Shown here one piece after another: positions 342-34,859 of a stretch of DNA of 41,174 nt. Location of the stretch: the IMG/VR virus record IMGVR_UViG_3300033153_005729, positions 1 through 41,174 of that record. One strand, 5' to 3'. This DNA comes from a virus. Made by a program: the position numbers and the translations under genes. The notes below the pieces were generated by a model that saw nothing but the letters and a program-made list of their open reading frames with translations, ran no database searches and was not told where the DNA came from. Position 1 is the stretch's first letter, and every line of letters starts with the position of its first letter.

Positions 342-846
342 CTAGGTGATGCGTGCGCGGTAGGTGATCTTCAGCTTGTCGTTCTCGGTCTTGTTGACCG
401 AGGTGAACACGGTGCGCATCAGAGCCGAGCCGCCGGGGCTCGTGTTCTGATTCGGAGCCGGCGCCCGAGGGGTAGGACCACACCCACTGGTGCGTTCGCG
501 TGCCGCTCTCGAGGCTGCGCGAGTCCACGGTCGAGAGGGAGCCGCCGCCGTCGGCCGTCGTGAGCGGGGTGAGGATGTTGGTCTGCGCCGAGGTCGCCGC
601 CGCGCCGCTCGTGCCGGCTCGCCCCTGGTCGAACACGGACGTGTTCAGGCCGGACGCGATGCGCCAGAGTTGCTTCTTGCCGGTGTTCACGATGAGGTTG
701 TGACTGATCCGGCGAGCGATGACCTCGGGGCCGTGCTTGCCGTCTCGGATGAGCTCGACCTCAAGGAAGCCACCGACGTCCTTGTTCTCGATGCAATCCA
801 CCAGGGTCATCGCCCCAGGTGCGTTCGGGGTCATCGTCGCTTCCAT
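342..846 (-). CDS. Putative virion/tail-associated protein, frameshifted near its C-terminus
   Basis: The ATG at 846 follows AAGGAG with a 7-base spacer, a good start. The frame reads well for about 126 residues, including a phage-like segment ending HNLIVNTGKKQLWR. After the residues RTHQWVWSYPSG the good reading moves to the +1 frame and ends in VNKTENDKLKITYRARIT and TAG at 344-342, a C-terminus style common in small phage structural proteins. The span is 505 bases, one more than a multiple of three; removing one base from the GGG or CCCC run (plus-strand 464-472) gives a continuous protein of 167 residues. If no base is removed, the first frame runs straight into the downstream zinc-ribbon gene without a stop. 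Exact role unknown; a tail or head decoration role is inferred from position. Confidence 0.6.
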
Positions 847-946: not shown

Positions 947-2959
947 CTAACCCGGCTCGGCCGCCGCCGCGACCTCCTCGGCTTCCTCGCCCTGGACCTC
1001 CTCGCCCTGGACGAGCTCGGCCGCGATGAGGGAGTCGGCCAGGCCGAGCTCGGCGCACGCCTCCTCCAGTTGCCGGAGGTTCCCGCGCGCCTCCTCGAAT
1101 GCCCAGGCCGGCGCGTTCTCGGGCAAGGTCTCCACGACCTTGCGCGCCCACTCGACGGCCTCGAGTCCTCGACCCAGGTGGCCGTAGACCATCGCGAGCC
1201 GTTGCGCAGGCAGGAAACTGTAGAGGTCCATGTCGATCCACCACGGGCCGAAGGGCGGAGCGCCGACCAGGGTGCCGGCGTAGCGGTAGAACATCAGGGC
1301 TTGCTCCAGTTGGTCGGAGCCGAACGCGAGGTCGCCGAGCCAAATCCAATGCTCGGTCCTGGTCCAGTCGTCGCGCGATGCGTCCATCAGGATGAGCCGC
1401 GTGCGTTCCTCGAGCTCGTCGGCTTCGGCCGCCAGCGCTTCGCGTTCCTCCTCGCCGAGCTCGGCCGCTTTGTCGGTCGCTCGAGCTCGCATCCTGCGGA
1501 ACGTGCCGGCGTGAATCTTGGCGACCATCAGCCGGGCCTGGTAGCGGGCGAGGCCGGTGCCTTCGTTCTGAGCCAGGAACGTCTCGAGGTATTCGGCCGC
1601 CTTCTCGGGGTCCTCGCGTCTGACCTCCTGGCCCAAATAAAACAAGCTGTTCGCGTTGCCCGATCGCTCCCAATCATCGAGGAGCGTTTCCCGGTTCTGC
1701 GCCTGGCGTTGCGTGGCGCGGGCCAGGGCGTTGTCGTGGTCGCGCTCGTGGAGCGTGACGATGCCGGGGAGGGCGACGACGATGGCATCCTTCGGGAAGT
1801 TCAGGGTGTTGTGGACGGGCCGCACGTAATGGATGCGCGCGGGGTCGTTCGCGCAGAGCCAGGGGAACGCCCACTGCTGCCGGTTGCCCTGGCGCGCGAC
1901 CGAGAAAACCTCCGGCTTGTCGCCGGCCGCCGTGATGATCCGGTCCAGGTGGAGGAGGAAGTGACGGCCGGCGATGAGCCGTTCGTGTCCCTCGGTCATG
2001 AAGATGTAGTCCGATGAACATCGCCGCATCGTTTGGTTGCGAACGTGCGAGAAGTGAACGCCATCCGGGGGGAGGGTCGTGTGGTCGTGATGCGGATCGA
2101 ACGCCGCGAGCTCGGCGCGGGTCGCCTCCTCCTGGGCCGCCGGGTCCTCGAGCTCGAACACGACATCGGCATAGCGTCGGACGATGGCCTCGGTCCCGTC
2201 GGCCGTGCGCGGGTCGATCCCCACCACGATCTCGTCGGCGACCTCGCGGAACGAAGCCAGGACCTTTTCGATGTCGGCCTCCTCGTCCCGGACGGGGAGA
2301 CACATCGACAGGGTGAACGCCTTGCGCGCCATCGCTCCGCAGAAGCCGAGGAGGAACGGGCCGAGGGCCGCGACTCGCACCGACCGATCGCCGAACGCCT
2401 CGCGGAGCTCGGCCGCGAACGTGATGGCGTCGAACGCGATGGTGTGCTGGTCCTCCTCCTCGGGGTCGAGGCGAGCATTCGGGACCGAGACGAACGCACC
2501 GAGCTCGCCGGCGAGCTCCGCCACCCGACCGAGGATGTCGGCGCGGGCCTCCCGGCTCAGGTGCTCGAGGACCTCAGTCGAGACGATGACCAGGCCGGCC
2601 GGGTCGAGGGAGTCGAATGCCTCCCGCCGCTCGCGGGAGTCCTCCAGGTCGAGGCGCCGGGTCGTGACGATGCCGGCTTCGGCCGCCTTCTCGAGAGCTC
2701 GGGGGCTCGAGTCCCAGACCTCGAGCTCGAGGCCGGCGCCCTGGAGGATGACGGCCAGGTCGCCCTGGCCGCCGCCGAGGTCCACGACGCGGGCCGCGCC
2801 TTCGGGCATCTCGCGTTCGATGCGTGTGTAGACCTGGGAGAGCGCCGCCCGTCGCCAGTCGGCCGTCTCGCCCTTGTCCCAGAGCCGGTCCCACAGGTCC
2901 GGCTCGTTCGCCTCGCGGGCCTTCGCCTCGGTCTCCGCCTGTTGCTTGCTTGCCGCCAT
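947..2959 (-). CDS. Methyltransferase-glycosyltransferase (GT2)-TPR-like fusion protein
   Basis: 670 residues, ATG after AAAGGAG. Residues about 30-205 form a class I SAM-dependent methyltransferase: VVDLGGGQGD (58-67) is motif I and STEVLEHL (127-134) is the typical post-II/IV region of small-molecule and sugar methyltransferases. Residues 216-400 look like a family 2 glycosyltransferase: FTLSMCLPVRDEEADIEKVL, then DEIVVGIDPRTADGT, and an HVRNQ segment. Where a DxD metal motif is expected there is FMTEGHE, so the acidic pair is altered. Residues about 430-640 are helical and tetratricopeptide-like, with a Glu-rich tail. It sits at the end of the tail module, so the inference is that it glycosylates and/or methylates a virion protein or a host surface glycan. 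Substrate unknown. Confidence 0.8.
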   Translation of the reverse strand: MAASKQQAETEAKAREANEPDLWDRLWDKGETADWRRAALSQVYTRIEREMPEGAARVVDLGGGQGDLAVILQGAGLELEVWDSSPRALEKAAEAGIVTTRRLDLEDSRERREAFDSLDPAGLVIVSTEVLEHLSREARADILGRVAELAGELGAFVSVPNARLDPEEEDQHTIAFDAITFAAELREAFGDRSVRVAALGPFLLGFCGAMARKAFTLSMCLPVRDEEADIEKVLASFREVADEIVVGIDPRTADGTEAIVRRYADVVFELEDPAAQEEATRAELAAFDPHHDHTTLPPDGVHFSHVRNQTMRRCSSDYIFMTEGHERLIAGRHFLLHLDRIITAAGDKPEVFSVARQGNRQQWAFPWLCANDPARIHYVRPVHNTLNFPKDAIVVALPGIVTLHERDHDNALARATQRQAQNRETLLDDWERSGNANSLFYLGQEVRREDPEKAAEYLETFLAQNEGTGLARYQARLMVAKIHAGTFRRMRARATDKAAELGEEEREALAAEADELEERTRLILMDASRDDWTRTEHWIWLGDLAFGSDQLEQALMFYRYAGTLVGAPPFGPWWIDMDLYSFLPAQRLAMVYGHLGRGLEAVEWARKVVETLPENAPAWAFEEARGNLRQLEEACAELGLADSLIAAELVQGEEVQGEEAEEVAAAAEPG

Positions 2960-3027: not shown

Positions 3028-3504
3028 CTAGTAGGGCCAGGCTCGGATGGCCGTAGCTCCCGAGCTCGGCGCCTTGCGCCGGATCTCGTAGAGGGTCGCC
3101 CCTCGCACGTTGAAGTCGAGCGGGTCGGCGTGGTAGTGGCCGTCCTCGATCGAGTCCTTCGCCGTCGCCGTCTGTTCCTCGGCGAACAGGACCTCGAGGT
3201 CGCCGGCATAGCTCTGGATGTAGGCGACGAACACGACCACTTGAGTCGCGCCCGGAGCGGTGAAGCGAACGGACGCCGCGACCTTGGTGCGGTTGTGCGT
3301 CGGCTTCGGCGTGTGGACCTCATCGCCGAGGTCGAGGCCGTCGGTCGCTTGCTGTCCTCCGATCTGGACGTCGATGTTCGGGCCGATGAGCTCGACGGTG
3401 ATGGAGTCATAGACGGCGATCTCCTCGCCGCCGAGCTCGCGCAGGTTGGCCGAGCCTTCGCGTCGGGCTTGCTTCTCGTCGCCGATTGTCAGGACCTCTT
3501 GCAT
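3028..3504 (-). CDS. Hypothetical protein in the tail-fibre region
   Basis: 158 residues. The ATG is preceded by GAGGAGG with a 5-base spacer. The protein is soluble, beta-rich by composition and has no recognisable domain; the second half contains a hydrophobic strand VVVFVAYIQSYAGDLEVLF. It lies between a fibre-like gene (3537-4433) and the glycosyltransferase fusion, so a small virion or fibre-associated role is the best contextual guess. I do not recognise the family. Confidence 0.75.
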   Translation of the reverse strand: MQEVLTIGDEKQARREGSANLRELGGEEIAVYDSITVELIGPNIDVQIGGQQATDGLDLGDEVHTPKPTHNRTKVAASVRFTAPGATQVVVFVAYIQSYAGDLEVLFAEEQTATAKDSIEDGHYHADPLDFNVRGATLYEIRRKAPSSGATAIRAWPY

Positions 3505-3536
3505 CGTGGCCTCCTCGGGCAGTCTACCGCGCAGGT

Positions 3537-4433
3537 CTACTCAAAGTAAGCGGAGAGCCGGCCGAGCTCGAACGATGGGGTGTCGGCGCCGTAGCCGAAG
3601 ATGCCCGAGAGCACGATGCGGAGATGCAACATCTCCCCAGCCGCGAGCGGGTTGGTCACGCCATTCAGGGCCGCGCCTGTTAGCTGCAGGTCCTGGTAGA
3701 CGGTGTCATCCACTTCGTTCGCCGCTCGCGCTCGGTTCACGGTTGCCGCGACGGTATCGCTCCCGGTCGTCGGATCGAAAACCGAGATGGTGATCTTCCC
3801 GTAGTCGCCTACTTTGCCGGCGCCGCCTGCGCCCATCCCGATCTTGTGCCGGAGGATGAGGCCGTCGGTTCCCCAGGTCGTGAACGCCTGGGGGACGGCG
3901 ATGCGCATGTCGAACAGGACGCTCCGGCTTTCCTCCGTGTTCAGGTTGTTCACCTGGTAGTAGGTCGTCCGGCGCGATGGGCTTCGCCCGTCTAGCTCCT
4001 CGCCGACGCGGACGGTCAGGGTCGAATTGTCGATGCTCCCTCGGTCCTCCGTGACGGTCCATCCGTTTGACCACTGGACGAACGTCTGGCGATCGTAGAA
4101 CGCTGCGGTGTTCTCCAGGCCGACGGCCGTTTTGTCTCGCCGCATCGCCCACGGGTAGGCGTGATTCGTGAGGTCGGCTCCGCCGATGCTGTCGAGCAGG
4201 TTGACGCCGGCCGAGTCGAGGATGCGGACGGCCCGGTTCAGAATCGAGAGCCGCCCCCATCCGGTCGGTGGGTTCGCCGGCGCCGATGTGAGAAGCCGCA
4301 CATCAAGGAGGCCGGTCGGGAGGAGGAACGCCGCGAGCGGGCCGCACACTTGAGCGATCCAGGTGCGGACGCCGAGCCGCATCTCGAAGAAGTCGGTGGT
4401 GGTGTCGCGTGGCTCGCCTCCGACGTGAGACAT
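3537..4433 (-). CDS. Hypothetical tail-fibre-region protein
   Basis: 298 residues, ATG with GGAG eight bases upstream that overlaps the TAG of the previous gene (4443). No known domain is evident. The sequence is rich in Thr, Asn and Gly in strand-like segments, as in phage adsorption and decoration proteins, and has no signal peptide. Its neighbours on both sides are probable virion proteins. A minor tail or fibre component is inferred from location only. Confidence 0.75.
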   Translation of the reverse strand: MSHVGGEPRDTTTDFFEMRLGVRTWIAQVCGPLAAFLLPTGLLDVRLLTSAPANPPTGWGRLSILNRAVRILDSAGVNLLDSIGGADLTNHAYPWAMRRDKTAVGLENTAAFYDRQTFVQWSNGWTVTEDRGSIDNSTLTVRVGEELDGRSPSRRTTYYQVNNLNTEESRSVLFDMRIAVPQAFTTWGTDGLILRHKIGMGAGGAGKVGDYGKITISVFDPTTGSDTVAATVNRARAANEVDDTVYQDLQLTGAALNGVTNPLAAGEMLHLRIVLSGIFGYGADTPSFELGRLSAYFE

Positions 4434-4442
4434 CCAGGGCTC

Positions 4443-5384
4443 CTACGTGCCGGCGCGGAACACAGCCAGGGGGAACGCCGTGGCGAGGTCGGCCGTCGGG
4501 GTCGAGGGGAACGGGTCGGGGAGGGCGACGGCCTCATCGTTCCCGCCGAGGGAGCCGCGCCAGACCGTGCGCAGGCTCGCCGCCTGGAAGTCGGCCGCGC
4601 CGCCGGGCCATCCGTTGTTGGCGCAGTCGGCCGCCGGGTAGGCTCGGAACGCGATGACCACCGAGCTCGCGATCAAGGCGACGAAGTAGCGCCCGGGGCC
4701 GAGCCGCCTGGTCGGCGAGACGGCGATGGCCTTGATGCCGGTGGCCGTGCTCGCGATTGTCCCCAGGTCCTCGAGCAATTCGCCGGGCTCGCCGCGCTGG
4801 CTCGTGCTCTCGGCGTAGAGGCCGATGCGGATCTGGCTCCCGGCGTCGAGGGTCGTGACCTCGACGGCGATGCGATCGATGGGCGCATCGCCGTAGATGG
4901 CAAACGGGATGCCGTAGAGCGTGTCGGCCGCGAGCGTGACGGTCGTGGTCGGCGCGTGCCAGTGCCCGGAGTAGAACCGGCCGGCTCGCCACAAGCGCGG
5001 ATCAACCGAACCGGCCATCTCGATTCGGCCGCGCCAGTTGACGATGGCCGTGATGCCCGAGCCGTCGCTGGTCACGACGGCGAGCGGAACGCAGGAGGCG
5101 GGGAACGCCGAGAGGGTGTCCGACTTCGTGAGAACGCCATCCTGGTCCAGGTAGACGTAGGTGGTCGCCGTCGCGTTGACCGATTGGTCCGAGGCCGCGC
5201 CGGCATAGGCGAACAGGACGGGGGCGCCCGGTCCCTTGAGCCAGACCTTCGCCGCAGACACGCGGAAGTTGAGGCCGGCGTTCGGCGAGATGTAGATGTT
5301 GCCGCCGTCGTCCAGGTCGTTCAGGTTCGCCGCGTCCAGGTCGGTCGCGTTGTCAACGATGCGCGCTGCCGCTCCGATCGCCAT
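4443..5384 (-). CDS. Putative tail fibre/tip-associated protein
   Basis: 313 residues, ATG after AGGAGGACCGG. The stretch YVYLDQDGVLTKSDTLSAFP, followed by VPLAVV and an ITAIVNWRGRI ending, resembles the exposed strand region seen in many phage fibre and baseplate-attached proteins (a TYVYLD... VPLA.V...G.I..I...R layout). The N-terminus is acidic (DLDAANLNDLDDG). The C-terminal half has a jelly-roll-like alternation of strands, but no family can be named. It lies directly downstream of the large hub gene. Confidence 0.7.
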   Translation of the reverse strand: MAIGAAARIVDNATDLDAANLNDLDDGGNIYISPNAGLNFRVSAAKVWLKGPGAPVLFAYAGAASDQSVNATATTYVYLDQDGVLTKSDTLSAFPASCVPLAVVTSDGSGITAIVNWRGRIEMAGSVDPRLWRAGRFYSGHWHAPTTTVTLAADTLYGIPFAIYGDAPIDRIAVEVTTLDAGSQIRIGLYAESTSQRGEPGELLEDLGTIASTATGIKAIAVSPTRRLGPGRYFVALIASSVVIAFRAYPAADCANNGWPGGAADFQAASLRTVWRGSLGGNDEAVALPDPFPSTPTADLATAFPLAVFRAGT

Positions 5385-5393
5385 CCGGTCCTC

Positions 5394-8300
5394 CTACTTC
5401 TGCCAGACGATGAGCCGCATCCGGATCATCGTGAATGGTCCTGCCTCGAGCTCGGCCGTCTCGATCGACACATCCAGAACTTCGCCGAACGCGAATGAGA
5501 AGTCCAGGTGCGACAGGCTCACGAGGTCGCCGAGCTTGAGCTCCAGGGCGAACAGAGGCAGGGCCATCTCGACAAGCCATCGGGGTGAGCTCCGCCGGAG
5601 GAGGTCGCGGGTCACCACGAGCTCGGCCGTCGCCGCGTCTCGGATGAGGCCGAGCTCGCGCGCTTCTTCCTTCCGACCGAACGTGACCTCGGCCGTATCC
5701 ACGATGACCTCGACGGCGCCGCCGGAGTCGCCGGTGGTGGGGAGCGGTTTGAACTTGGCCTGGATGCGCGTGCGCGCGTCGGCCAGGGCCGTCCTCGAGA
5801 AGCCGAGGGTGTCGCGCAACACGTCGCCGTCGGCGAGGTTGCGGAACGCCTCGAACGTGTCGCCGGCGATGATCTTGTAGGTTCCGTTCGCGCGAACGAT
5901 CCCACCCACGGCCGGCTTGCGAACGATCCGATGCCGGCCTCGGTCCCATGCCTGGCGGAAGTCGCACTCGTCGGCCAGTTGCGAGAGGAGGACCAGGGCG
6001 TTCACTTGCTTCGTGATGGTGAAGTCGGCGCGCACGCCGTCGGCCGCGAAGCCGGCGCGGGCCGGGTTGTAGTCCTCGCGTGCGATCTTCGCGAACGCCA
6101 GCCCCATCCCCTGGGGGGGCGCCGTCGTGACGATGCTCTCGCAGATGTCGGCCGGGTTGCCGTCGGTGACCTTGCCGGTCACGTCGGCGTAGACCTCGGG
6201 GACGCTCGAGCTCACATCGAAGAAGGGCTGATACTCGACGACCCAAAACGCCTCGAGCACTCGGAGCTCGCCGGCCGAGCTCTCGACCGTGATGCTCCCG
6301 CCGCGCGTCGGGTCATCGAAGAACTCCCAATCGCCGGCGACGAACTCGGTGACCTCGAAGTGATTTGTGATGCCCTTCCGATCTTCGATGAGGGGCGGGG
6401 GCTCGGGTTCCTTCTCGAGCTCGCAAATCAAGGTGACTGGCTGCCCGACCGATGGCCCGGTCGGGCCGCTCGGCTCGAGGACCAGGCGGAGGTCCTTCAG
6501 GTTCTCGAGCTTCGAGCCGAGGATGCCAGGGCCGATGCTCGCGCCGCTCCCGTGCGGGATCGTGTCGGAGCGGGCCTCCTGGGGAGCGAGGATGCATCCG
6601 GTTGCGATCCACCCGTGGATGGTGTCATTGAAGAACCGGACGTTTACCTCGGTTCCCTTGATCTTCCCGCCGCGCCCCGAGAGGTAGGCAAGGAGGGGCG
6701 CGTAGATGTAGCCGAGGACCGTGACCGTATCGACGAACACCCGGATGTAAGCGTGCTTGAGAGTGAAGCCAGAATCCGCCGGCTCCTCTTGGTTGTCCTT
6801 GAACTTGACGCGCGCCGCCAGGCCGGGGCCGTCGGCGATGGTGACCTCGCCGGGGACGTTGAACTGAGCATCGCCGGTGTTGTCGTCGTCGAGGTCGAAG
6901 ATGCTCTCCGCGTTCTCGCGTGTCGTGTAGAGGAGCTGGTGGTCCTGCACCTTGGGCGCGTTGCTCCAGATGCCGGCCGCCTCGATCTCGACCTCGGCGA
7001 TGATGGTTTTCTTCTCGGCCTTCGGCGTCTCGATCTGGACCTCGACATCGTAGAGCCGGTCATTTGTCCGATCGTCGAACCGCGCGATGCTGATGGGGGT
7101 CAGGTCCTCGGCGACCAGTTGGAACGCCGCCGGCGCCTTGCCGGGGAACGTGACCGTGGCGCCGGCCGCCGTCGCCGATGCATTCGATGCCAGGACGGCC
7201 GCGTTCGCTGCCGCGACGGCCGCCGCGTTCGCGTCCCTCGCCGCGAGCTCGGCGATGGTCGCGTTGCTCACCATCGTCGCCACGCCGGCCGAGAACACCA
7301 TCCCGTAGCCGTTCGGGATGCCGTGGACCGATCGCAGCATCTCATCGTAGGTCGCCTGGACGGGCTCGACGGCATCGTCCTTGATCGAGTCCCGGACGCG
7401 CTCGGCCGTCAGGGTCGCGTTCGTGAAGCCGCCATCGGGGAGAGGCACCCAATCGAATATCTGCCGGAACACGACGTCCTTGGCGACATCCCAGAGCTCG
7501 GTTTTGTGGAAGCCGGTCGGGTTCTCGACCTGCTCGGCGACCTCGGGCGGGGTCGTGTCGTGAACGACCGCAATCCACACGCGCTTGATGTCGCCAGGCC
7601 GGCCGAGGTCGTTCGTGTTCGTCTCGATCTTGAGCGGGGTAGACGCCGAGACCTTGGCATACTCGAACGTGTCGTATCCCGGATTCTCTCGCGCCGCGAA
7701 CTGTGCATCGGTCGCGAGGTTGCCGGCCGCCTGGGCGTTGAAGTGAACGCGCTGGAACAGGGCATCGACGCCGGACGAACGGATGCGGGGGAGCTCGCCC
7801 CAGGTCGCCGTCGCCTCCTGGTAGTCGATCGAGTCCGGCCCGGGGACGGGCTCGCCCAGGTTGCCCTGGGGGTCGCGGATGCGGATGTCCTCGAGCCGAA
7901 CGATGGGGTGGTCGGCGAACTTGACCACGAACGGGCCGAGCTCCCGGACCTCCGAGTCCTTCCCGTGCTCGGCCGCGATGGTTCCGTTCGCGCCCCTGGT
8001 CGCGCCGGTGAGCTCGCGGGCCGTCTCGCTTCGGCCGGTGTAGGCGACCTGCTCATCGCCGACCTGGATGGTCCCGGCGTCTGGGAACGCGCCCACGTCG
8101 AGGAGCTTGATGGTCGTGTCGGCGATGAAGTGATTGAAGAACAGACGGCCGATGGCGTTCGTGTTGATGACCAGGCCGCGCGAGAGCTCGACCTGCCCGA
8201 ACACGATGGGGACGACCAGGCCGAGCACTTCGGATGGCGCGTCGGGGAAGTCGGTCAGGGTGATAAGCCGACCCATGAGCCGGTCATCGACGACCTCGTT

Positions 8301-8924
8301 CCGGAGAACGTCCAGAGAGACATCGACGCGCGAGAAGCCGGGGACGCGCTCGACCTTTCCCTCGAACAGATGGACGCGGTTGCCTACGACGTCCGGGTCG
8401 TCGATGAGGCCGAGCCAGATGGAAACGCCGCGCGCCTCGGGAGGGTTGGCCGCGAACAGGTCGCGGAAGCGGGCGCCCCTGGTCGTCGTGTCGTCCAGGC
8501 TCAGTTGGACCTCATCGGTCCCATCGGTGATGGTTCGCAGAATCGCGCCTGCATTGACAAGCCGGCCGGAGTAGGGAACGCCGCCCACTAGCAGGTCGCG
8601 GTTGGCGACTCGCACGGTCCCGCCGGCCAGGCGGAGCTCGACCAGGATGACGGGGTGCGTCTCTTGCCGCCGGTAGAGGTCGGTGCCGAGCCGGAGGTTG
8701 TAGGCGTCAACCGAGAACGCCGCATCCTCGATCGCCCGGACGTTCGAGTCCACGAGGAAGATGCCATCCTGGTCGCTCCGCCCGATGAGCGAATCGACCG
8801 AGAAGCCGACCTCCGGAACGGTGCGCACCGACGAGTCCACGGAGAACTGTTTGACGACGCGCGGGATGACCTCGCCGAACGTGTAGCCGCCCCACACGCT
8901 TCGTGTCGGATGTCCGTAGGTCAT
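5394..8924 (-). CDS. Large tail-tip/hub-like protein (putative host-specificity region)
   Basis: 1176 residues from the ATG at 8924, whose ATGA overlaps the stop of the upstream gene (8923-8921). The same frame is open further upstream, but that part is arginine-rich shadow sequence, so the ATGA start is preferred. Residues 27-73 hold four short repeats starting FSVD, FSVD, FLVD and FSVD at positions 27, 41, 56 and 70. An Ala-rich helical segment lies near residues 540-570 (ARDANAAAVAAANAAVLASN). The C-terminal 250 residues, with an LADECDFRQAWDR segment, resemble the distal hub part of siphovirus tip proteins. Size and position after the tape measure and small tip genes suit a gpJ-like central tip or hub; similarity by eye is weak. 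Confidence 0.7.
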   Translation of the reverse strand: MTYGHPTRSVWGGYTFGEVIPRVVKQFSVDSSVRTVPEVGFSVDSLIGRSDQDGIFLVDSNVRAIEDAAFSVDAYNLRLGTDLYRRQETHPVILVELRLAGGTVRVANRDLLVGGVPYSGRLVNAGAILRTITDGTDEVQLSLDDTTTRGARFRDLFAANPPEARGVSIWLGLIDDPDVVGNRVHLFEGKVERVPGFSRVDVSLDVLRNEVVDDRLMGRLITLTDFPDAPSEVLGLVVPIVFGQVELSRGLVINTNAIGRLFFNHFIADTTIKLLDVGAFPDAGTIQVGDEQVAYTGRSETARELTGATRGANGTIAAEHGKDSEVRELGPFVVKFADHPIVRLEDIRIRDPQGNLGEPVPGPDSIDYQEATATWGELPRIRSSGVDALFQRVHFNAQAAGNLATDAQFAARENPGYDTFEYAKVSASTPLKIETNTNDLGRPGDIKRVWIAVVHDTTPPEVAEQVENPTGFHKTELWDVAKDVVFRQIFDWVPLPDGGFTNATLTAERVRDSIKDDAVEPVQATYDEMLRSVHGIPNGYGMVFSAGVATMVSNATIAELAARDANAAAVAAANAAVLASNASATAAGATVTFPGKAPAAFQLVAEDLTPISIARFDDRTNDRLYDVEVQIETPKAEKKTIIAEVEIEAAGIWSNAPKVQDHQLLYTTRENAESIFDLDDDNTGDAQFNVPGEVTIADGPGLAARVKFKDNQEEPADSGFTLKHAYIRVFVDTVTVLGYIYAPLLAYLSGRGGKIKGTEVNVRFFNDTIHGWIATGCILAPQEARSDTIPHGSGASIGPGILGSKLENLKDLRLVLEPSGPTGPSVGQPVTLICELEKEPEPPPLIEDRKGITNHFEVTEFVAGDWEFFDDPTRGGSITVESSAGELRVLEAFWVVEYQPFFDVSSSVPEVYADVTGKVTDGNPADICESIVTTAPPQGMGLAFAKIAREDYNPARAGFAADGVRADFTITKQVNALVLLSQLADECDFRQAWDRGRHRIVRKPAVGGIVRANGTYKIIAGDTFEAFRNLADGDVLRDTLGFSRTALADARTRIQAKFKPLPTTGDSGGAVEVIVDTAEVTFGRKEEARELGLIRDAATAELVVTRDLLRRSSPRWLVEMALPLFALELKLGDLVSLSHLDFSFAFGEVLDVSIETAELEAGPFTMIRMRLIVWQK

Positions 8925-10150
8925 GTGGTCATCATCCTCGCCGCGCCGAGGCAGTCCATGTCGCCGTAGGTTCCCGTCTTTGTGATCTCGACCTGGAGGC
9001 GATCTCCCACCGAGATGGGCACCGACAGGTTGCCTTTGAACGCTCGGCCGCGATGCCCGACAAGGAGGCCGGTCCCGCTGTCGTATTTGCTCACGCCGTT
9101 GATGAGAATCCGAATCCGGTCGAGACGGTCGGTGCTCATCAGGTTGCTCTGCTGGTAGACGTAGACCGCATCGATGATCCCGGCCGCCGGCGCCACCCAT
9201 TCGTCGGCCTGGCCGGCCGTCGTCGTGGTGTTGTTCCCGTTGGCGATCATCAGGACGGCCGTGGTCGTCGCCCCTGGAATGCGCCGGCCGTAGGGGAAGT
9301 CCATATCGGCCGCGTGACCCCAGCGCATCCCCTGGTCCTGCGTCGAGTCGGCGACAAGCCGCTGGCCGCCGTCCTCGCCGCTCGCGTCGAGGAGGGTCAG
9401 GCCGGCCGCGTCCCTGGCGAAGATGTCGCCGGCGCCTTGGAGCGTGTCGCGCAGGAGGAAGTCCACCATCGTTGCCATGCGCTCCCAATCGCGCGCCTCG
9501 GCCTTCGTCGGGTCGGAGAGGATGGTGCCGTCGCCGTCCGGGTCGAGGTAGCTGGTCGCGTCCTCCTCGGCGCCTGGCTCCTGGTCGGGGAGTCGGTCGG
9601 CCTCGATCGTGGCGATGGGCGCCTTGATCCAGTAGGGAACTTCGGTCACTCGGTTGTTGTCGTAGTTGTTGACCTGGAGGACCGCGAAGCCGCGCGTGAC
9701 GTTGAACGTCGCGGGCTGCGTGATGACGATGCGGGTCGTGCTCTCCGAGACGATGGAACAGGACGTGCCATCAAGCCGGATGCTGTTGTTGTTGCTCGAG
9801 AATCCCTGGCCGTCGATGGTGATGGTCTCGCCCGATCGGCCGCGCTTCGGGTTGTAGTCCGTGACCAGGTGGACCATGCCATCGGTGAGGATCGCCTGGA
9901 GCGTGTCGGCCGCTTCGATCGTGTCGGCGAGCTCGCGGACGATCTCGCCCGGGTTCTGCGAGAGCTCGGCCGCGATCGAGTCCGAGACGGCGATGGCGTC
10001 GGCGAGCTTGACGTGCCAGGACGCCTCGAGCTCCAGGGCGTCGGCGACGGCGATGGCGTCGGCGAGCCGAGGGAAGAAGGATGAGAGCTCGGTGGCAAGC
10101 GAGTCGGTCGCCGCGACCTCATCCACGAACTGCAGGTCGAACAGGGCCAT
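8921..10150 (-). CDS. IPT/TIG-domain virion protein, copy C
   Basis: 409 residues; the ATG at 10150 shares its A with the previous stop (TGATG). Residues 13-88 carry about four repeats of the type LADAIAVSDSIAAEL. Residues 94-176 form an IPT/TIG immunoglobulin-like fold: VTDYNPKRGRSGETITIDGQ, then GF and strand pairs. The rest matches the two genes upstream: MATMVDFLLRDTLQGAGDIF, then RLDRIRILINGVSKYDSGTG, then a C-terminal DCLG. Known TIG domains in phage tails are displayed on tubes, tips or fibres and often bind carbohydrate. It is the last of three tandem paralogues before the hub gene. Confidence 0.75.
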   Translation of the reverse strand: MALFDLQFVDEVAATDSLATELSSFFPRLADAIAVADALELEASWHVKLADAIAVSDSIAAELSQNPGEIVRELADTIEAADTLQAILTDGMVHLVTDYNPKRGRSGETITIDGQGFSSNNNSIRLDGTSCSIVSESTTRIVITQPATFNVTRGFAVLQVNNYDNNRVTEVPYWIKAPIATIEADRLPDQEPGAEEDATSYLDPDGDGTILSDPTKAEARDWERMATMVDFLLRDTLQGAGDIFARDAAGLTLLDASGEDGGQRLVADSTQDQGMRWGHAADMDFPYGRRIPGATTTAVLMIANGNNTTTTAGQADEWVAPAAGIIDAVYVYQQSNLMSTDRLDRIRILINGVSKYDSGTGLLVGHRGRAFKGNLSVPISVGDRLQVEITKTGTYGDMDCLGAARMMTT

Positions 10151-11082
10151 CAGTAGACCACCAGGCCGGCGAGGCAATCGACGGTGGATGTCCCGCCATC
10201 GCCGGTGAGCTCGACGGACCACCGATCGCTCGCCGCGACGGCGCCGGCGTCGGCGAACACGGATGCCGCGTGATACTCCTGCGCGTCGAGCTTGAGGCCG
10301 GTCCCGGAGTCGTAGACCTCGACGCCGTTGCGGAGGAGGCGCACCTGGTCGATGTCTCGCGTCCCGCCCTGGCGATCGATGTAGACGAAGAAGGTGGTGA
10401 GCCGGCCGCCGTTCTGCGCGCGTTGCTCGGCGCCGTATGAGAGGCCGGCGTTCGCCGTCCCGTTCGCCGCCATCAGGGTCGGGGTCGCCGTTGAGATTTG
10501 CCGCCCCCAGGTCAGGAACGTCGGCGCGCGAGCTCGGAACGTGACGCCGCCGTCCTCGCCCTGGTCGAGCATCAGGGTCGCGCCAGGGGAGCCGGCCGCG
10601 ACCTTCGAGACGCCGCCGGCCGCCGTGAAGCCGGCCATCTCTCCGACGGCCTCGAGCACGTCGGTCGGGAGGAATTGCAGGAACTCGTGGAGCGCTTCGA
10701 TGTCCTTCGCCTCGATGTGCTCGGGGTGCTCCTCGGAGGAGGCCGCCCCCCAGTCCTCGAACGCGCCGGGGGGTTGCCAGGGGAGCTCGAACGCCATGAG
10801 CTCGGCCGTCGTCGGCTTGCTCCACCACTGGCGTGTGCTGTCGGTTCCGTCGGTCGGATGCGTGACCTTGACGGGGATGAATCGGTCGCGCCGGATGCCG
10901 GCCGGAACGGTCGCCGTGATGCTGGTCGTGCTCTCGAGGGTGACGGCCGCCGCTTGGCCGTCGATCGCCACCACGTTGCCCGAGCTCCCGAAGCCGATGC
11001 CCGAGATGACCAGGGCATCGCCGGCCCGGCCGCGCGGGGGGGCGAGCTCTTGGACGGCGACGGTCTCGACCTGGTAGGCCAT
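10150..11082 (-). CDS. IPT/TIG-domain virion protein, copy B
   Basis: 310 residues from the ATG at 11082, with a weak GGCGGAG upstream. A GTG at 11187 in the same frame would add 35 Pro-rich residues but has no ribosome site, so it is not preferred. Residues 1-88 form the IPT/TIG domain: LAPPRGRAGDALVISGIGFG and the ITATVP strand. The conserved C-terminal region includes DIDQVRLLRNGVEVYDSGTG and ends STVDCLAGLVVY, aligning with copies A and C. It lacks the LADxIxVxDSL repeats of the other two copies. A surface-exposed tail protein is inferred. Confidence 0.75.
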   Translation of the reverse strand: MAYQVETVAVQELAPPRGRAGDALVISGIGFGSSGNVVAIDGQAAAVTLESTTSITATVPAGIRRDRFIPVKVTHPTDGTDSTRQWWSKPTTAELMAFELPWQPPGAFEDWGAASSEEHPEHIEAKDIEALHEFLQFLPTDVLEAVGEMAGFTAAGGVSKVAAGSPGATLMLDQGEDGGVTFRARAPTFLTWGRQISTATPTLMAANGTANAGLSYGAEQRAQNGGRLTTFFVYIDRQGGTRDIDQVRLLRNGVEVYDSGTGLKLDAQEYHAASVFADAGAVAASDRWSVELTGDGGTSTVDCLAGLVVY

Positions 11083-11248
11083 CAGGCGCGCTCCGCCAGG
11101 AACGGGGTCCTGGGCTGCGTTTCCCGCCGCCCCTGGGCCGTTCTCGTCCGGCTCGGGTCGTGGCGGGGGGTTCGGCTCGAGGACCACACGCGGGCTCTGT
11201 GTGCGCCGCTAAGTCCCATGATTGCGTCCCGTTTGTCGTAAACCCCTG
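11083..11248 (-). other. 166-base gap between IPT/TIG copies A and B
   Basis: No gene is supported here. The frame of copy B stays open through it from a GTG at 11187, giving a Pro/Arg-rich extension that looks like shadow sequence. No convincing promoter or terminator was seen. It is the longest untranslated stretch in the tail module and could be a remnant of the duplication that produced the three paralogues. Confidence 0.4.
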
Positions 11249-13306: not shown

Positions 13307-13798
13307 CTATGCTGCCGGTCGGTGGATTCTAAACCGCAGGTCCAGGCTGAATCGCTCATCCCGTTCTTGCTCGAACGCGAGCTCGGCCTGGTCGAGATAG
13401 ACATCCCGCAGGTTCGTCGTGTCCGGCTTCACGGTGTCGCCGGCCTTGTAGGTTGAGCCGGCCTGGATGACCGAGCCGGCGACGACCATCGCCGCCTTGA
13501 TCTTCTGGGGGAAACTCGAGCCGGTGATGTCGATCGAGAACGAACGCGCCATCCGAAGCGTGCCGCCTCGGCCGAAGAAGTCCTCGAGGTCGGCGCGCTC
13601 TTGCGTCGTGAGGAATCCCCAGGAGGCTTCGATGACCTGTTCGGCGCCGTCGTGGTCTTGCACGTAGACCAGGCCGCCATCGGTCTGGCCGCGCCCTTGC
13701 CAGAACACCCGCCGGTCCACGTCGGAGAACTCGGCGTTCCTGATGCTCGCCGCTTTGATGAATCCCTCGGGGGTCTCGACCGTGAACGTCCACGCCAT
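13307..13798 (-). CDS. Minor tail protein, possible distal-tail component
   Basis: 163 residues; its ATG overlaps the tape-measure stop as TGATG, indicating translational coupling. It reads MAWTFTVETPEGFIKAASIR and ends FSLDLRFRIHRP, with a central loop VIEASWGFLTTQERADLEDF. The length and place directly after the tape measure are those of small distal-tail-like proteins, but no family motif can be named with certainty. Confidence 0.65.
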   Translation of the reverse strand: MAWTFTVETPEGFIKAASIRNAEFSDVDRRVFWQGRGQTDGGLVYVQDHDGAEQVIEASWGFLTTQERADLEDFFGRGGTLRMARSFSIDITGSSFPQKIKAAMVVAGSVIQAGSTYKAGDTVKPDTTNLRDVYLDQAELAFEQERDERFSLDLRFRIHRPAA

Positions 13799-16700
13799 CA
13801 GAACGGGCCTCCCTGCCGGACGCCCAGCTTCGTTTGGCGCCGGAGCTCGGGGAGCATCGCGCGGATCTGCGAACGACTCCCCATCGTGCTCCGATCGCTC
13901 GCGTTGATGGTGTTGTTCACGGTCGTCCCTCGGCCGAGCCGGCGAAGGGCCGCCGGCCCGATCGCCTGGGCGATCCGTCGGCGGATGACGAACTCGCCGC
14001 GCTGGCCGATGAACGGCCCGGTCCTCTTGAGGAAGCCGCCGGCGTGATGGTTCGCGACCTGGCCGGAGTTGGAGATGGCCCGGCCGGTGATGCTCCGCCG
14101 CCCCTGGCTGTAGCGCCCGCCGCGTTGGCCGCCCATGCTCGAGGCCGCCGAGCTCATCCCGGCCGCCGCGTTCTCGGCCGATGCCTTGAGCGCATCCATC
14201 GCCTTGCTCGCCTTGCCGAGCTCGCCAGCCAGGCCGGCCTCGCCTGCCTTCTTCGCTGCCTGCTCCATGCCTTGTGCGAGCTTGGTGAATTTCTCCTTGA
14301 GGGGGTCCTCTGCCTTCGCTGCCAGGGCCGTCATCTGCTCGGCGAGCCTTTGGAACTTCGCCTGTGCTTCGGCGCCGGTCGCGTTGCCCAGGTCCTCGAA
14401 CCGCTTTTGAATCTCGCCGAACTGCTCGGCCAGGGCGCCGTCCTTGATCGTGGCGCCGAGCCCTTCCATCTTGTTTTGCATCTCGACGATGAGCTTCGTG
14501 AACTTCTCCGGGTCCACGAGGCCGGCCATCTGCGCGTTGATCTTCTCCTTGAGCCGGAGGAACGCAGGCTCAAACGCATCGGTGCCCATCTTCCCGGCCA
14601 GGTCCTTCACCTTGTCGCCGAGCGCCTTGAACGCGCCGGACACTTCCGGGTCCTTGGCCGTCGCCTGGGCGAGCTCCTTGAACTTCTGGAACAGGGCGAC
14701 CAGTTGCGCCATCGCGTCTTGCTGGCCGCCGCCTCCTCCTCCTCCTCCTCCTCCTGGTCGTCGCCGACCGTCCGGCCCGGTCACCATCCCGCCGAACCGT
14801 CCCGAGCCGCCGCCTTGACCTGCTCGAGCTCCGACCGTTCCCATCTGCCCGGCCGCGCCGGTGAGGCCGGGGAAGCCGGCGCCCTTCTGGCCTCGGACGA
14901 TGCCTAGCTGGAGGAAGCCGCGCGGGCCTCCGCCCCTCCTCCTCCGGCTCCTCCTGCTCCGTGTCGGCTTCTTTTTCTCCAGTTGCTTACGAAGCCGAAC
15001 GCGCGTCCGCATCCGATCGTTGATGGTCTTTTCGGTCTCGGCCTGTTCCTTCGTCGCCTTGCTTATCTTCCCGAGCGCTTCGAGGATCTTGACGTAGCGA
15101 CCTTCGACATCGGCGAGCTCGGCCGCCGTCGCCTTCGTGTCGCGCTTCAGAATCTCGAACGTCTCCTGCGCAATCTGTCGCCATCGCTCGTGCAGGTCGC
15201 CGGCGTCCTCGATCCCATCGGCGACCTTGGCGAGAGAATCGAAGCCGCTACCGATGGCCGCTTCCATCTTCTCGAACGTCGCGTTTAGGCTCGCCGCATC
15301 TTTCTGGAGGTCGGAGAACAAGCCATCGCCCGTGTCTTTCAAAGCGTCCAGGGCGCGTTGGAGCGTAGCCGTCGGAGCTCCCAGGGCGCGGGCCGCGTCC
15401 ACTAGCTTCTGCATCCCGCGCTCGATGACCAGGACCCATCCAAGGACGGCCGTCTTGAGGCCGAGCTTGATGGTATCGCCGAACCGCGCGAAGTAGGTGG
15501 CGACTCCGGCCAGGACGCTCGCCATCTTCTTTCCGAACGCCGCGAACTTCCGAAGCACGGCCGCCAGGACCTTGATGGTGATGCTCCTCCACCACAGGGC
15601 CTTCTCGACGACGTAGGCCAGGGCCGCCGCGATGCCCTGGAACGAGACCTTGGCGCCGAGGTATAGCGACTCGAACACGACCGCCACTCCGGCGAACTTC
15701 TGGGAGATGGTCGAACGGAACGCGCCGGTGCTTTTCAGGAGCGCCTTGAACCCATCGATGGCCGGCTTGATGAACTCCCAGATGCGTTCGCCGAATCCCA
15801 CGAACGACCTCACGATGTAGGCCGCGACTCGCCCGATTTCCTTCCCGTAGCCGACGATGCGCTCCTTGTTGTCTCGGATCATCTTGAGGAAGCCATCGAA
15901 ACTGGAACCGGCATCCCCGAACGAGAAGCCGAGCGCATCAAGGAACTCCGTGAACGTCGCGCCGACCGCTCCGAGAATCGTCCCGATCGCCTCCTTGATT
16001 GCTGCGCCGCGCTTGCCCATCCAATCCGCGAACGCCTGCATCGCTCCTCGGGCTCGGCTGCCCATGTCGGTGAACGCCGAGACCACGGCCGTCGCGATCG
16101 GGGCGAGCGCTTGGCCGAACGAACGGAATGCATCTTTCACAGTTTGCCAGGCTGTCTGCCAAGCAAACGTCAGGGTGCTCGCGACCTTGCCGAACGCCTC
16201 GCCGGCCGCGCCGCTCGCGTTGCGTGTCGCCTCCAGGCTTTCGTTGAACTTGTCGAAGCCGGTCCCGGCCAGGGTCGAGACTCCGACCAGGGCGCGCACG
16301 TTCGGGAAGAAGTCCACCAGGGCGCCGTTGCCGGCATCGACCGCCTTCTTCACTCTGGCGATGGCATCGCCCAGGCCGCGTTCCTTATCGGCGAGGCTGT
16401 CGGTCGTGACGCCGATGCGATCCAGGGCGCGCTTCGCCGACTCGCTCGGCTTGAGGATGCCGACGATGGTGGCCTTGAGCGCCGTGGATGTTTCGGCCGT
16501 GTTCAGGCCGCTCGCGGTGAGCGTTGCCATCGCCGCGCTCATCGCCTCGAGCGTGACGCCGGCCGAGGCCGCGACGGGAGAGACCTGGCCGATGCTCGCC
16601 GCGAGCTCGGATGCCGTCGTCTTGCCTGCCTTGATCGTCGCGAACATCACGTCCGCGACCTTGTCTACTCCGCCGGCCGCATCGCCGAACGAGTTGAGGA

Positions 16701-17199
16701 CCGTGGTGAACAGGTCCACGGCTTCGTTCGCTGTCGCCGCGCCGGCCGCCGCTCCCTTGAAACTGGCCTCTAGGAACTTGATGACCTCGCCAGGCTTCTG
16801 CCCGGCGGAGATGGCCTGGTATGTCGCCTCGGTTGCTTCGAGGAGGTCCACGCCCATCCGCACCGAGAGGTCGCGGATGTCGCCCGACAGGCTGGAGATG
16901 TTGTGCTTCGATTCGTCGATGAGCGTTCGCACTTGCGCGAACTTGCTCTCGAACTTCGCGAACGACGCGACGGCCGCCACGCCGATGCCGGTGAGCGCCG
17001 CGCCGGCGAGGCCGGCGCCCTTGGCGAGCGTCTTGAGGCCGCCGGCGATGCCCTTGAACGCCTTGCCTAGTTTCTTGCCGACTCCCTCGCCCTTCTTCTC
17101 GAGGGTGCCCAGAGACTTCTGCGCCTTCTTCGAGGCGCCGACGAAGCCGCGCGCGTCTCCGGTGATGCGTCCTTCGAGCTCGGGGCCTTTACCTGCCAT
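13798..17199 (-). CDS. Tail tape measure protein (TP901 type)
   Basis: 1133 residues from the ATG at 17199, which overlaps the end of the frameshifted chaperone extension. A glycine-rich hydrophobic stretch lies at residues 50-80, and the TP901-type core (about 85-350) includes FESKFAQVRTLIDES, YQAISAGQKPGEVIKFLEAS and ASELAASIGQVSPVAASAGV. Long helical and hydrophobic segments follow. About residue 750 is an Arg-rich patch (RSRRSRRRRGGG) and about residue 820 a run of glycines, then amphipathic repeats and a basic C-terminus. At about 0.15 nm per residue this predicts a tail of roughly 170 nm, clearly a long-tailed siphovirus. It sets tail length and is expelled before DNA ejection. Confidence 0.95.
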   Translation of the reverse strand: MAGKGPELEGRITGDARGFVGASKKAQKSLGTLEKKGEGVGKKLGKAFKGIAGGLKTLAKGAGLAGAALTGIGVAAVASFAKFESKFAQVRTLIDESKHNISSLSGDIRDLSVRMGVDLLEATEATYQAISAGQKPGEVIKFLEASFKGAAAGAATANEAVDLFTTVLNSFGDAAGGVDKVADVMFATIKAGKTTASELAASIGQVSPVAASAGVTLEAMSAAMATLTASGLNTAETSTALKATIVGILKPSESAKRALDRIGVTTDSLADKERGLGDAIARVKKAVDAGNGALVDFFPNVRALVGVSTLAGTGFDKFNESLEATRNASGAAGEAFGKVASTLTFAWQTAWQTVKDAFRSFGQALAPIATAVVSAFTDMGSRARGAMQAFADWMGKRGAAIKEAIGTILGAVGATFTEFLDALGFSFGDAGSSFDGFLKMIRDNKERIVGYGKEIGRVAAYIVRSFVGFGERIWEFIKPAIDGFKALLKSTGAFRSTISQKFAGVAVVFESLYLGAKVSFQGIAAALAYVVEKALWWRSITIKVLAAVLRKFAAFGKKMASVLAGVATYFARFGDTIKLGLKTAVLGWVLVIERGMQKLVDAARALGAPTATLQRALDALKDTGDGLFSDLQKDAASLNATFEKMEAAIGSGFDSLAKVADGIEDAGDLHERWRQIAQETFEILKRDTKATAAELADVEGRYVKILEALGKISKATKEQAETEKTINDRMRTRVRLRKQLEKKKPTRSRRSRRRRGGGPRGFLQLGIVRGQKGAGFPGLTGAAGQMGTVGARAGQGGGSGRFGGMVTGPDGRRRPGGGGGGGGGGQQDAMAQLVALFQKFKELAQATAKDPEVSGAFKALGDKVKDLAGKMGTDAFEPAFLRLKEKINAQMAGLVDPEKFTKLIVEMQNKMEGLGATIKDGALAEQFGEIQKRFEDLGNATGAEAQAKFQRLAEQMTALAAKAEDPLKEKFTKLAQGMEQAAKKAGEAGLAGELGKASKAMDALKASAENAAAGMSSAASSMGGQRGGRYSQGRRSITGRAISNSGQVANHHAGGFLKRTGPFIGQRGEFVIRRRIAQAIGPAALRRLGRGTTVNNTINASDRSTMGSRSQIRAMLPELRRQTKLGVRQGGPF

Positions 17200-22356: not shown

Positions 22357-23526
22357 CTATGCCGCCGCCAGGTTGTGGATCATGGCGTGGCCGCCGTCGC
22401 CGGTGTTCTTCGCCTCGAGCGTGAGCTCGATCGACACCATCCGGTCATCGACGTGGCCGGTCTTTGCCAGGTCCTCCGACTCGAACGGGTCGCCGCCGGC
22501 GCCGAGCTTCTTGAGAGAGAGCCGGCCGCGATCGAGGATGAGCAGGGCGTCCTTCGGGATGTAGCGATCGGGTTCCATCACGTCCACGATGCCGAAGTCC
22601 GAGACGAAGCGATCGATGACGATGCCCAGGGTCGAGTCCTCGACCTGCAGCCGCACCCGCCCCTCGGCGAGCTTGGACAGGGCGCGCTTCTGCTTCGGCG
22701 AGGCCGCGAGGAGGGTGGGGGTTCCGCCCCTGGTCCACGAGTCCTCGAGCGCCTGATTCAGCAGGTCCTCGGTGAGCGCTCCGCCGGCCGCGTCCACCAC
22801 GACGGAATCGCTCCCGCCGATGAGCATCTGCACGAGACCATCCATCGTCGAGGCTTCCGACAGGGTGCCTTCCTCGTTCGACGCCTGGCGCTTGCCGTTC
22901 AGAACCGTCCGGGCGACTCGCCGCACCAGGTCCTGCTGGACACGAAGCACCTGGTGGTCGAGCTGGTCGCCCACGTTTCCGATGTTCGTGACCTTGCGCA
23001 TCTTGCCGGTGACGCTCGCCGTGTCGTCGAACATCTCCGTCCAGTTGTCGCCCTGGGTGAGCGTGGTGGGCCGCGCCGTCTTGGCGTTGCCCGCCTCGGT
23101 GTTCGGGTTGTTCACGACCTGGAGCACGTCGCCCTGGACCTGGGCCTCGCCCGTCGTGCTCCGGTAGGAACGAACGACGGTGAGCGCATCGGTCGAGACG
23201 GACGTGAGGTCGATGAGCTCACGCGAGCCATCGAACTGGAGCACGTCGCCGGCGCGGAACCGGACGCCCTGTCCGGCCGTGACGTTGATGGTCGTCGCGA
23301 CATCCGTGAGGGTCGCATCGTCCAGCGTTCCGGAGTCCGGGTTGAGCTTGTCCTCCGCCCACTTGTGATGGTTCTCGGTGATGGTCTCGAGACTCCCGGG
23401 GAAGCCGAGCATCGTGAGGAACGCCGACTCGAACCGGGTGATGAAAGCGACGGGATCTTCGAGCCCGCGACTCTCGAGGAGCTCGGGGAGGGTCGATCCA
23501 GCCGAGAAGGTAGTGAGGTCCGCCAT
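22357..23526 (-). CDS. Major capsid protein (SU10-like family)
   Basis: 389 residues; ATG after AGGAGAGACAG. It opens MADLTTFSAG and carries the family layout: TENHHKWAEDKLNP near residue 50, PTTLTQGDNWTEMFDDTASV and VGDQLDHQVLRVQQDLVRRV in the middle with LNGKRQ, and a long C-terminal domain with SPKQKRALSKLAEGRVR. This matches the SU10/DUF5309 group of HK97-fold capsid proteins rather than classical HK97 gp5. It follows the protease-scaffold gene and precedes a terminator-like hairpin, the usual site for the most highly expressed gene. Confidence 0.88.
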   Translation of the reverse strand: MADLTTFSAGSTLPELLESRGLEDPVAFITRFESAFLTMLGFPGSLETITENHHKWAEDKLNPDSGTLDDATLTDVATTINVTAGQGVRFRAGDVLQFDGSRELIDLTSVSTDALTVVRSYRSTTGEAQVQGDVLQVVNNPNTEAGNAKTARPTTLTQGDNWTEMFDDTASVTGKMRKVTNIGNVGDQLDHQVLRVQQDLVRRVARTVLNGKRQASNEEGTLSEASTMDGLVQMLIGGSDSVVVDAAGGALTEDLLNQALEDSWTRGGTPTLLAASPKQKRALSKLAEGRVRLQVEDSTLGIVIDRFVSDFGIVDVMEPDRYIPKDALLILDRGRLSLKKLGAGGDPFESEDLAKTGHVDDRMVSIELTLEAKNTGDGGHAMIHNLAAA

Positions 23527-33510: not shown

Positions 33511-34859
33511 TGCCGCGTGGGGTGCGGTGCGCCGAGCTCGGCCAGGGCGTCGGCGCCGGCCGGGATGCCGTTCGCCCTGGCGAACTCTCCCCAGCGCCAG
33601 CGGATGATGTCGCAGTAGCCGGGCTCGAGCTCGGCCATCAGGGTCGGGCGCTTGCCGGCCGCGATGCACGTCGAGCCGGCGCCGGCGAACGGGTCGTAGA
33701 TGGGGACGGTCCCATCGGCCGCGACTCCGATGATGGTCTCGAGAACGTCGATGGGCTTCTGCGTCGTGTGCAGGTCGTTCCTCGTTCTCGGGCAGGTGAT
33801 GACGTTGCCCTGGGCGCGCTTGAGGTCGGCGAACACGTCGGTGTCTCGACAGGAACACATCACGAGCTCGTGCTGATTCCGCCAGCCGCGACCCATGCCC
33901 GGGTTGCCCTTGTTCCACACGACCATCGCGCGCACGCCGTAGCCGAGCGATTCCATCACGTCGAACAGGTTGACCCACATCCTCCAGTCCGTGAACACGT
34001 AGGCGAGCTTCGCATCGACGTGCCCGAGCACTCGGCGAAGCAGGGCCTGGTAGCCTCGGGTGCTTAGGGTGTCGTTCGCCACGGCCTTGTGCTTCGCGTC
34101 GGTCCCGACCGAGCCGCGCCGCCTCGAGCTCTCTTGGAAGCCGCCCGAACAGTAGGGGGGGTCGGTCACGATCATCCCGAGCTCGCGCCCTTCCACGCCT
34201 CCGGCGTCGAGGAGGCGCCGCACCAGGTATTCCTTCCCGGCGTCTCCGCAGAGGAGGCGATGCGGGCCGAGCTCGTAGATGGCATCGAGCTCCGACACCG
34301 GATGCTCTGGAACGGGGACGGCCTTGATGGTCTTGCGCTCCGGCTTCGGCGGGGGGTCCAGGTCGGCGTAGAGGCCGGCGAGCTCGTCCTCATCCCACCC
34401 GACGCCGGTGAGCTCGTCGGCGCCCTCGAGCTCCCGGACTAGCTCGAGGAGGCGATCCCCATCCCACTCGGCGAGCTCGGCCGTCCGGTTGTCGGCCAGG
34501 CCGAAGCCGGTGGCCGTCGCCGGGTCGTCGTCCACGAGGACCTGGGCGAGCCAGGACCATCGGCCGTCCTCCTCGGCCATCGCGCGGGCCGCCTCGAGCG
34601 TTCCGTTTCCGGCCTCGACCACCATCCCGTTCCGGTTGACCACGATGGGCTTGCGCTGGCCGAACGTCTCGAGGCTTTCGGCCGTCGCCGCGATGTTCCG
34701 CTCGGGGTGCTTCCGCGCGTTGCGCGGGTCGAGGACCAGGCCGGCGATGGGCCGGGCCAGGCCGCGCAGGTCCTCGGCGATGTGCGAGAGGTCGGGGCCG
34801 TCCTCCTCCTCGGCGAACAGGTCGGCCTCCTCCTCCTCGAGCTCGGTTGCTTCCGTCAT
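33507..34859 (-). CDS. ParB-like nuclease domain fused to a DNA (adenine/cytosine-N4) methyltransferase
   Basis: 450 residues. An acidic leader (residues 1-25) precedes a ParB-like region (about 40-135): LDPRNARKHPERNIAATAES and GQRKPIVVNRNGMVVEAGNG. The methyltransferase (about 190-430) has LLCGDA, the catalytic DPPY (233-236), HTTQKP (364-369) and the AdoMet-binding FAGAGST (391-397). DPPY before FxGxG is the order of beta-type N6/N4 methyltransferases. ParB-methylase fusions are common in tailed phages just upstream of TerL. Likely roles are self-protection from restriction or marking DNA during packaging. Target sequence unknown. Confidence 0.88.
   Translation of the reverse strand: MTEATELEEEEADLFAEEEDGPDLSHIAEDLRGLARPIAGLVLDPRNARKHPERNIAATAESLETFGQRKPIVVNRNGMVVEAGNGTLEAARAMAEEDGRWSWLAQVLVDDDPATATGFGLADNRTAELAEWDGDRLLELVRELEGADELTGVGWDEDELAGLYADLDPPPKPERKTIKAVPVPEHPVSELDAIYELGPHRLLCGDAGKEYLVRRLLDAGGVEGRELGMIVTDPPYCSGGFQESSRRRGSVGTDAKHKAVANDTLSTRGYQALLRRVLGHVDAKLAYVFTDWRMWVNLFDVMESLGYGVRAMVVWNKGNPGMGRGWRNQHELVMCSCRDTDVFADLKRAQGNVITCPRTRNDLHTTQKPIDVLETIIGVAADGTVPIYDPFAGAGSTCIAAGKRPTLMAELEPGYCDIIRWRWGEFARANGIPAGADALAELGAPHPTRQ

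Follow-up and report, generated by a model that had tools for sequence, protein, structure and literature searches.

Genomic setting of the enzyme gene

The window analyzed here, a viral record of 41,174 bases taken at its full length, encodes on its minus strand a tape-measure-like gene (13798-17199), an SU10-type major capsid gene (22357-23526), and a terminase gene (31879-33978), which lie on the same strand as the enzyme described below and therefore mark the window as that of a tailed phage. The enzyme, a 670-amino-acid protein combining a methyltransferase, a GT2 glycosyltransferase, and a TPR region (P0001; 947..2959, minus strand), is encoded where the tail region ends, past a gene for a tail hub- or tip-like protein (5394..8927, minus strand, start approximate; weak Phage-tail_3 and tail PHROG matches) and three smaller genes (3028..5384, minus strand; 158, 298, and 313 amino acids), the last of whose products matches phrog_25864 as well as a tail-protein PHROG. 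The earlier note had left the strand of this gene unstated. Its ATG is preceded by a Shine-Dalgarno sequence, its reading frame is intact in the window, and its GC content by codon position (0.74/0.45/0.89) is what is expected of a real gene. Close pairs of relatives give dN/dS values of 0.06 to 0.18 for the enzyme, which is thus under purifying selection.

The earlier note listed three IPT/TIG proteins in the vicinity, and Pfam supports IPT/TIG in two nearby minus-strand frames, 8921-10828 and 10150-11187 (overall, 8921..11187). Because the two frames overlap, the boundaries of these genes are uncertain, and the overlap suggests that a frame or a gene boundary is wrong here, perhaps through another sequence error in the record.

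Domain architecture and relatives of the enzyme

A first scan of IMG/VR with the window enzyme returned four loci with 43 to 45% identity, and a profile scan extended these to 33 loci, from which, after removal of duplicates, we assembled a family of 29 proteins including that of the window. The three-domain architecture is complete in every member except L003, which is cut by the end of its contig. When the window enzyme is searched alone, Pfam returns the methyltransferase family PF13489 above its curated cutoff (2.7e-7) and a weak TPR signal and does not detect GT2. Across the family, however, GT2 (PF00535) is detected in 25 of the 29 members (best value, 1.3e-10), and the families of the other two domains reach as many as 27 members for methyltransferase and 23 for TPR. 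An AlphaFold2 model built on the 29-protein alignment (pLDDT of 89.6 and pTM of 0.85) was compared by Foldseek with the PDB, where ThuS and SunS rank at the top (5.7e-12 over ~435 columns), followed by SAM methyltransferases; we read the ~435 aligned columns as the likely GT2-TPR portion of the modeled enzyme. The union of the three parts in a single protein, which the earlier note had proposed, was therefore borne out by Pfam across the family, by the model, and by the fold search, and the strings cited in its favor (VVDLGGGQGD, EVLEHL, FTLSMCLPVRDEE, DEIVVGIDPRTADGT, and TEGHE) are each present in the protein.

The N-terminal domain (residues 1-205; 2345..2959, minus strand) has the Rossmann fold and motif I loop of a class I SAM methyltransferase, being matched by PF13489 and by the folds of 9fcy, 9fce, and others. 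Its SAM-binding motif I, D-x-G-G-G-x-G, occupies residues 60-66 (2762..2782, minus strand), with D60, G62, and G66 invariant in all 29 proteins. The methyltransferase family profile matches the CysG N-methyltransferase (7e-10) and UbiG, and the nearest solved structures, all of low identity, are the CysG/BelI N-methyltransferases and the UbiG O-methyltransferase; neither profile nor fold searches returned a substrate-specific relative.

The second domain (residues ~212-407; 1739..2326, minus strand) combines a GT-A fold with a GT2 profile, its best profile match being GmaR (2.9e-13), with SunS at 6.7e-4. Residues 216-400, which the earlier note had assigned to a GT-A domain, take no other fold in the model or in the fold and profile searches. 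The C-terminal domain (residues 408-652; 1004..1738, minus strand) is all-helical in the model, matches consensus TPR proteins, and contains two near-invariant blocks, YLGQE and DDWSRTEHWIWLGD.

By fold alignment and model, the order of the last two domains, GT2 and then TPR, is that of SunS, ThuS, and GmaR. GmaR of Listeria (PDB accession number 22ao) is the O-GlcNAc transferase of flagellin and acts on the filament protein of its own system, as we propose for the phage enzyme; unlike the latter, it has DADE in place of EGHE, an antirepressor C terminus, and no methyltransferase. For the GT2-TPR portion of the phage enzyme, GmaR serves as a close model; the authors of the GmaR study propose that flagellin is recognized by the TPR region (PMC9638930). 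The glycocin S-glycosyltransferases SunS and ThuS (PDB accession numbers 7msn, 7msp, and 7msk), of which SunS originates from phage SPbeta, are clustered with a small acceptor, an arrangement that resembles that of the phage enzyme and the small partner protein described below; they differ in lacking a methyltransferase and in having a bacteriocin peptide as acceptor, and SunS retains DxD.

A conserved E-x-H motif at the DxD position

A DxD motif is usual in GT-A folds. In the enzyme, as the earlier note recognized, the expected motif is replaced by TEGHE (residues 322-326; 1982..1996, minus strand), and alignment shows that this substitution is an ExH motif conserved throughout the family and not a loss: T322, E323, H325, and E326 are invariant in 29 of 29 proteins, and the third residue of the motif is G in 24 and A in 5. 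The usual DxD is thus absent in all 29 members, each of which has E-[G/A]-H at a position where GmaR has DADE and SunS has DAD. Also invariant throughout are D225, E226, D249, D254, R307, N308, H383, N384, and H404, the last of which (1748..1750, minus strand) aligns with the C-terminal histidine of the GmaR catalytic domain and is a candidate third metal ligand. Since variants such as DxH exist, DxD is typical of GT-A folds and not strictly defining, and the invariance of TE[G/A]HE together with the downstream H404 argues that the missing DxD does not reflect decay. By analogy with GalNAc-transferases, which bind Mn through DxH and an additional histidine (PMC9996832), E323, H325, and H404 may serve as the metal ligands. 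The GalNAc-transferases (GT27) share the GT-A fold and offer the nearest analogy to ExH plus H404 (PMC9996832), but they are eukaryotic, carry a lectin domain, and have Asp rather than Glu, such that the likeness is one of motif and no homology is claimed.

The presence of ExH where DxD is expected, along with the capacity of TPR proteins to act as chaperones, could also be taken to mean that the GT2 domain is catalytically dead and that the protein serves the partner as a scaffold or as a chaperone of assembly, with only the methyltransferase possibly active. We regard this as very improbable, given that E323, H325, E326, H404, R307, N308, D225, D249, and D254, all invariant in the 29 proteins, form the pattern of an active site and that the DxH-plus-His site of the GalNAc-transferases is a working precedent (PMC9996832).

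Distribution of the family

Among the sources searched, the enzyme family is known solely from uncultivated viral contigs. Searches by tblastn of 50,697 phage records with the window and L004 enzymes returned no relatives, and no cultured-phage relatives were found by tblastn with these two enzymes and two small-protein queries. For the most divergent enzyme, that of L034, matches are confined to portions of the GT2 region in SPbeta yolJ (SunS) and in a small number of further records. Three short, unannotated INPHARED records labeled as "Listeria phage" (OR848573, OR848533, and OR847070) also give matches to the GT2 domain, but these could be fragments of host gmaR rather than phage sequences. 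A pattern-based scan of GTDB genome contigs, which distant relatives could escape, detected none. In a library of predicted viral structures, there are low-identity GT2 matches from phages and giant viruses, and the best match extends over 621 columns of a 790-amino-acid protein from an uncultured phage, so that a similar fusion possibly exists elsewhere. The literature searched yielded no description of a methyltransferase-GT2-TPR fusion.

A small partner protein accompanies the enzyme

In an all-against-all comparison of open reading frames, a gene for a small protein of ~162 amino acids lies directly downstream of the enzyme gene in 28 of 28 testable loci, i.e., those continuing beyond the end of the enzyme (L003 stops inside it). 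The two genes usually overlap or are separated by a few bases, with a spacing of 100 in the window. All 21 of the 21 members compared match phrog_5417 (best value, 1.8e-18), which is labeled "unknown function," and 9 of them also match phrog_4176, "tail fiber protein"; from PHROG membership and names, together with gene position, we infer that the partner is a virion protein. It is present in a single copy in each of 16 whole records searched, and its structure model (pLDDT of 79) has no match in the PDB by fold search.

The genes surrounding the pair are far less uniform. In L004, the pair stands beside a phrog_1623 virion protein and a head-tail adaptor, in L032 beside a tail sheath, and in the window beside the tail genes of a phage whose capsid is of the SU10 type, and because it remains constant amid such unlike virion genes, it has the appearance of a cassette. 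The next most common neighbor is a large fiber-like protein, found in 21 loci, and genes for capsid and terminase occur close by in 11 to 13. The fiber-like proteins after the pair are very large in L011, L009, L013, L027, L017, L025, and others, many with "SDT..VSD" repeats.

The earlier note had suggested the IPT/TIG proteins as possible targets. These are not the conserved neighbors, a position held in every testable relative by the phrog_5417 partner, which the note had not named, and as main target candidates they were set aside: at the blastp setting applied, the IPT/TIG frames of the window have no homolog in the 28 relatives. The partner is the only constant candidate substrate and, as such, the best candidate target.

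A separate scan begun from the partner recovered almost solely the enzyme contigs, plus five others. Three of the five (L050, L056, and L060) have the partner and no enzyme detected in the recovered record, and the partner can therefore probably work unmodified; the remaining two are L061, cut at the contig end, and L069, a weak match. By our reading of the sequences, the partner in these three enzyme-free loci comes after a beta-helix-like or collagen-like tail fiber.

No residue of the partner clearly distinguishes enzyme-linked from enzyme-free copies. T131 was considered as an acceptor residue and rejected, as it is invariant and yet present in enzyme-free copies too. N147, in an N-K-T context, is a possible acceptor lead: it is N in 18 of 20 enzyme-linked copies and T, T, and S in three enzyme-free copies, a contrast whose significance (Fisher P = 0.006) is lost upon correction for ~60 columns and for shared ancestry. 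The mirror-tree correlation between enzyme and partner (r = 0.84) was likewise discarded as evidence of interaction, since shared descent predicts the same.

In the window itself, the partner gene (342..846, minus strand, start at 846) is frameshifted at ~452-460: the frame is lost after SYPSGAGS, some 12 residues are absent, and the remainder continues in another frame from 452 to 342. The break may be a genuine deletion or may have arisen in assembly. The broken frame runs on into zinc-ribbon-like sequence up to the end of the window.

Candidate targets of the modification

The enzyme might instead glycosylate and methylate a fiber, specifically a collagen-like or Ser/Thr-rich repeat protein near the pair, with the partner being only a co-inherited fiber accessory. 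We judge this scenario unlikely but a serious rival, which several loci bring to mind: in L033, the enzyme gene is immediately preceded by a collagen-like open reading frame (L033:2-9838) of at least 3278 amino acids that contains ~968 G-x-y triplets, large repeat fiber-like proteins come after the pair in 21 loci, and in the enzyme-free L056 and L060, the partner comes after a collagen-like fiber. The fiber genes vary, however, and are missing or unrelated in several loci in which the partner is constant.

Phages commonly encode glycosyltransferases that change the O-antigen or capsule. Jumbo phages, for instance, carry clusters of them (PMC7824862), and the enzyme might in the same manner change a host surface glycan or a host protein, leading to a superinfection block or a change of serotype. 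We hold this to be very unlikely: no flippase-, GtrB-, or sugar synthesis-like gene was seen beside the enzyme, the TPR architecture is soluble and the gene sits in a late structural operon, the nearest solved relatives act on proteins, and the fixed virion-type neighbor would be left unexplained. Thus, of the earlier proposal that the target is a virion or host surface glycan, the virion portion is retained, with a protein as the likelier target, and the host surface glycan becomes less likely because GmaR, SunS, and ThuS all act on proteins.

Hypermodification of phage DNA, with the glycosyltransferase and methyltransferase acting on bases, seems the least probable of all. Virus-encoded glycosyltransferases that glycosylate DNA do exist, according to work cited in PMC12619734, but the TPR domain, the position among tail genes, the structural-type neighbor, and the action of the nearest relatives on proteins all speak against such a role here.

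Proposed function of the enzyme-partner pair

To judge from sequence and structural models, the enzyme appears to be a protein glycosyltransferase of the GmaR/SunS GT2-TPR type to which a methyltransferase is fused and in which an ExH motif is conserved, encoded in a two-gene phage cassette. That its gene always directly precedes that of one virion-type protein suggests that these phages decorate their own particles, and we consider it probable that the protein is an enzyme complete in itself and acts on virion proteins through TPR binding, GT2 sugar transfer, and methylation, with the phrog_5417 protein as the likeliest acceptor. Coupled glycosylation and methylation, as put forward in the earlier note, is accordingly retained as the leading idea for the predicted activity.

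Under this model, the TPR domain would hold a phage structural protein while the GT2 domain moves a sugar from a host nucleotide-sugar onto it, relying not on DxD but on a putative metal site formed by ExH (E323 and H325) and H404. The N-terminal methyltransferase would then methylate, and so cap, the sugar, or else methylate the protein; the methyl group would most simply be placed on the sugar, as by the third domain of PBCV-1 A064R (PMC9614988). The small phrog_5417 protein would be the likeliest acceptor, with a fiber assembled together with it as the next choice. Enzymatic activity, the metal role of ExH, the sugar, the acceptor, the order of the reactions, and the benefit to the phage are all predicted features of this model, and the last of these could lie in protection against host proteins, in particle stability, or in adsorption.

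A precedent for such a combination is A064R of the chlorovirus PBCV-1, a GT-GT-methyltransferase protein that finishes and caps a glycan carried by the capsid of the virus itself (PMC9614988). Like the phage enzyme, A064R unites glycosyl- and methyltransferase domains on one viral protein, but its two glycosyltransferases belong to other families, its methyltransferase is C terminal, it has no TPR region, and its work, in a eukaryotic host, is to lengthen an N-glycan already in place. Mycobacteriophage glycosyltransferases modify the capsid and tail tube of virions, again per work cited in PMC12619734. Unlike the arrangement described here, the glycosyltransferase genes are separate there, modification falls on capsid or tail tube, and no fusion of a glycosyltransferase, a methyltransferase, and a TPR region is known to us among these phages.

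The partner and enzyme travel together in 28 diverse uncultured phage loci, and the phages that have the partner without a detected enzyme provide natural comparisons. A bolder version of the model, which we advance tentatively as somewhat doubtful, holds that the pair is a mobile two-gene cassette, consisting of an ExH-site enzyme and its own small substrate, that crosses unrelated tailed phages and furnishes them with a methyl-capped sugar coat. To our knowledge, few examples of glycosylated phage particles have been described, and for most of them no rule for the choice of acceptor is known. If the proposed function is correct, the pair would constitute a simple two-gene system for glycosylating the phage coat and would stand as the prokaryotic equivalent of PBCV-1 A064R, and its ExH motif would add a new variant of the metal site to GT2.

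The PF00535 model misses some members of the family, but where it detects the enzyme, the enzyme is its sole match in nearly all records, including one of 452 kb, as a one-enzyme system that uses host sugars would predict. The records of L033 and L034 carry further GT2 genes, with three further GT2 matches in the 242-kb record of L033.
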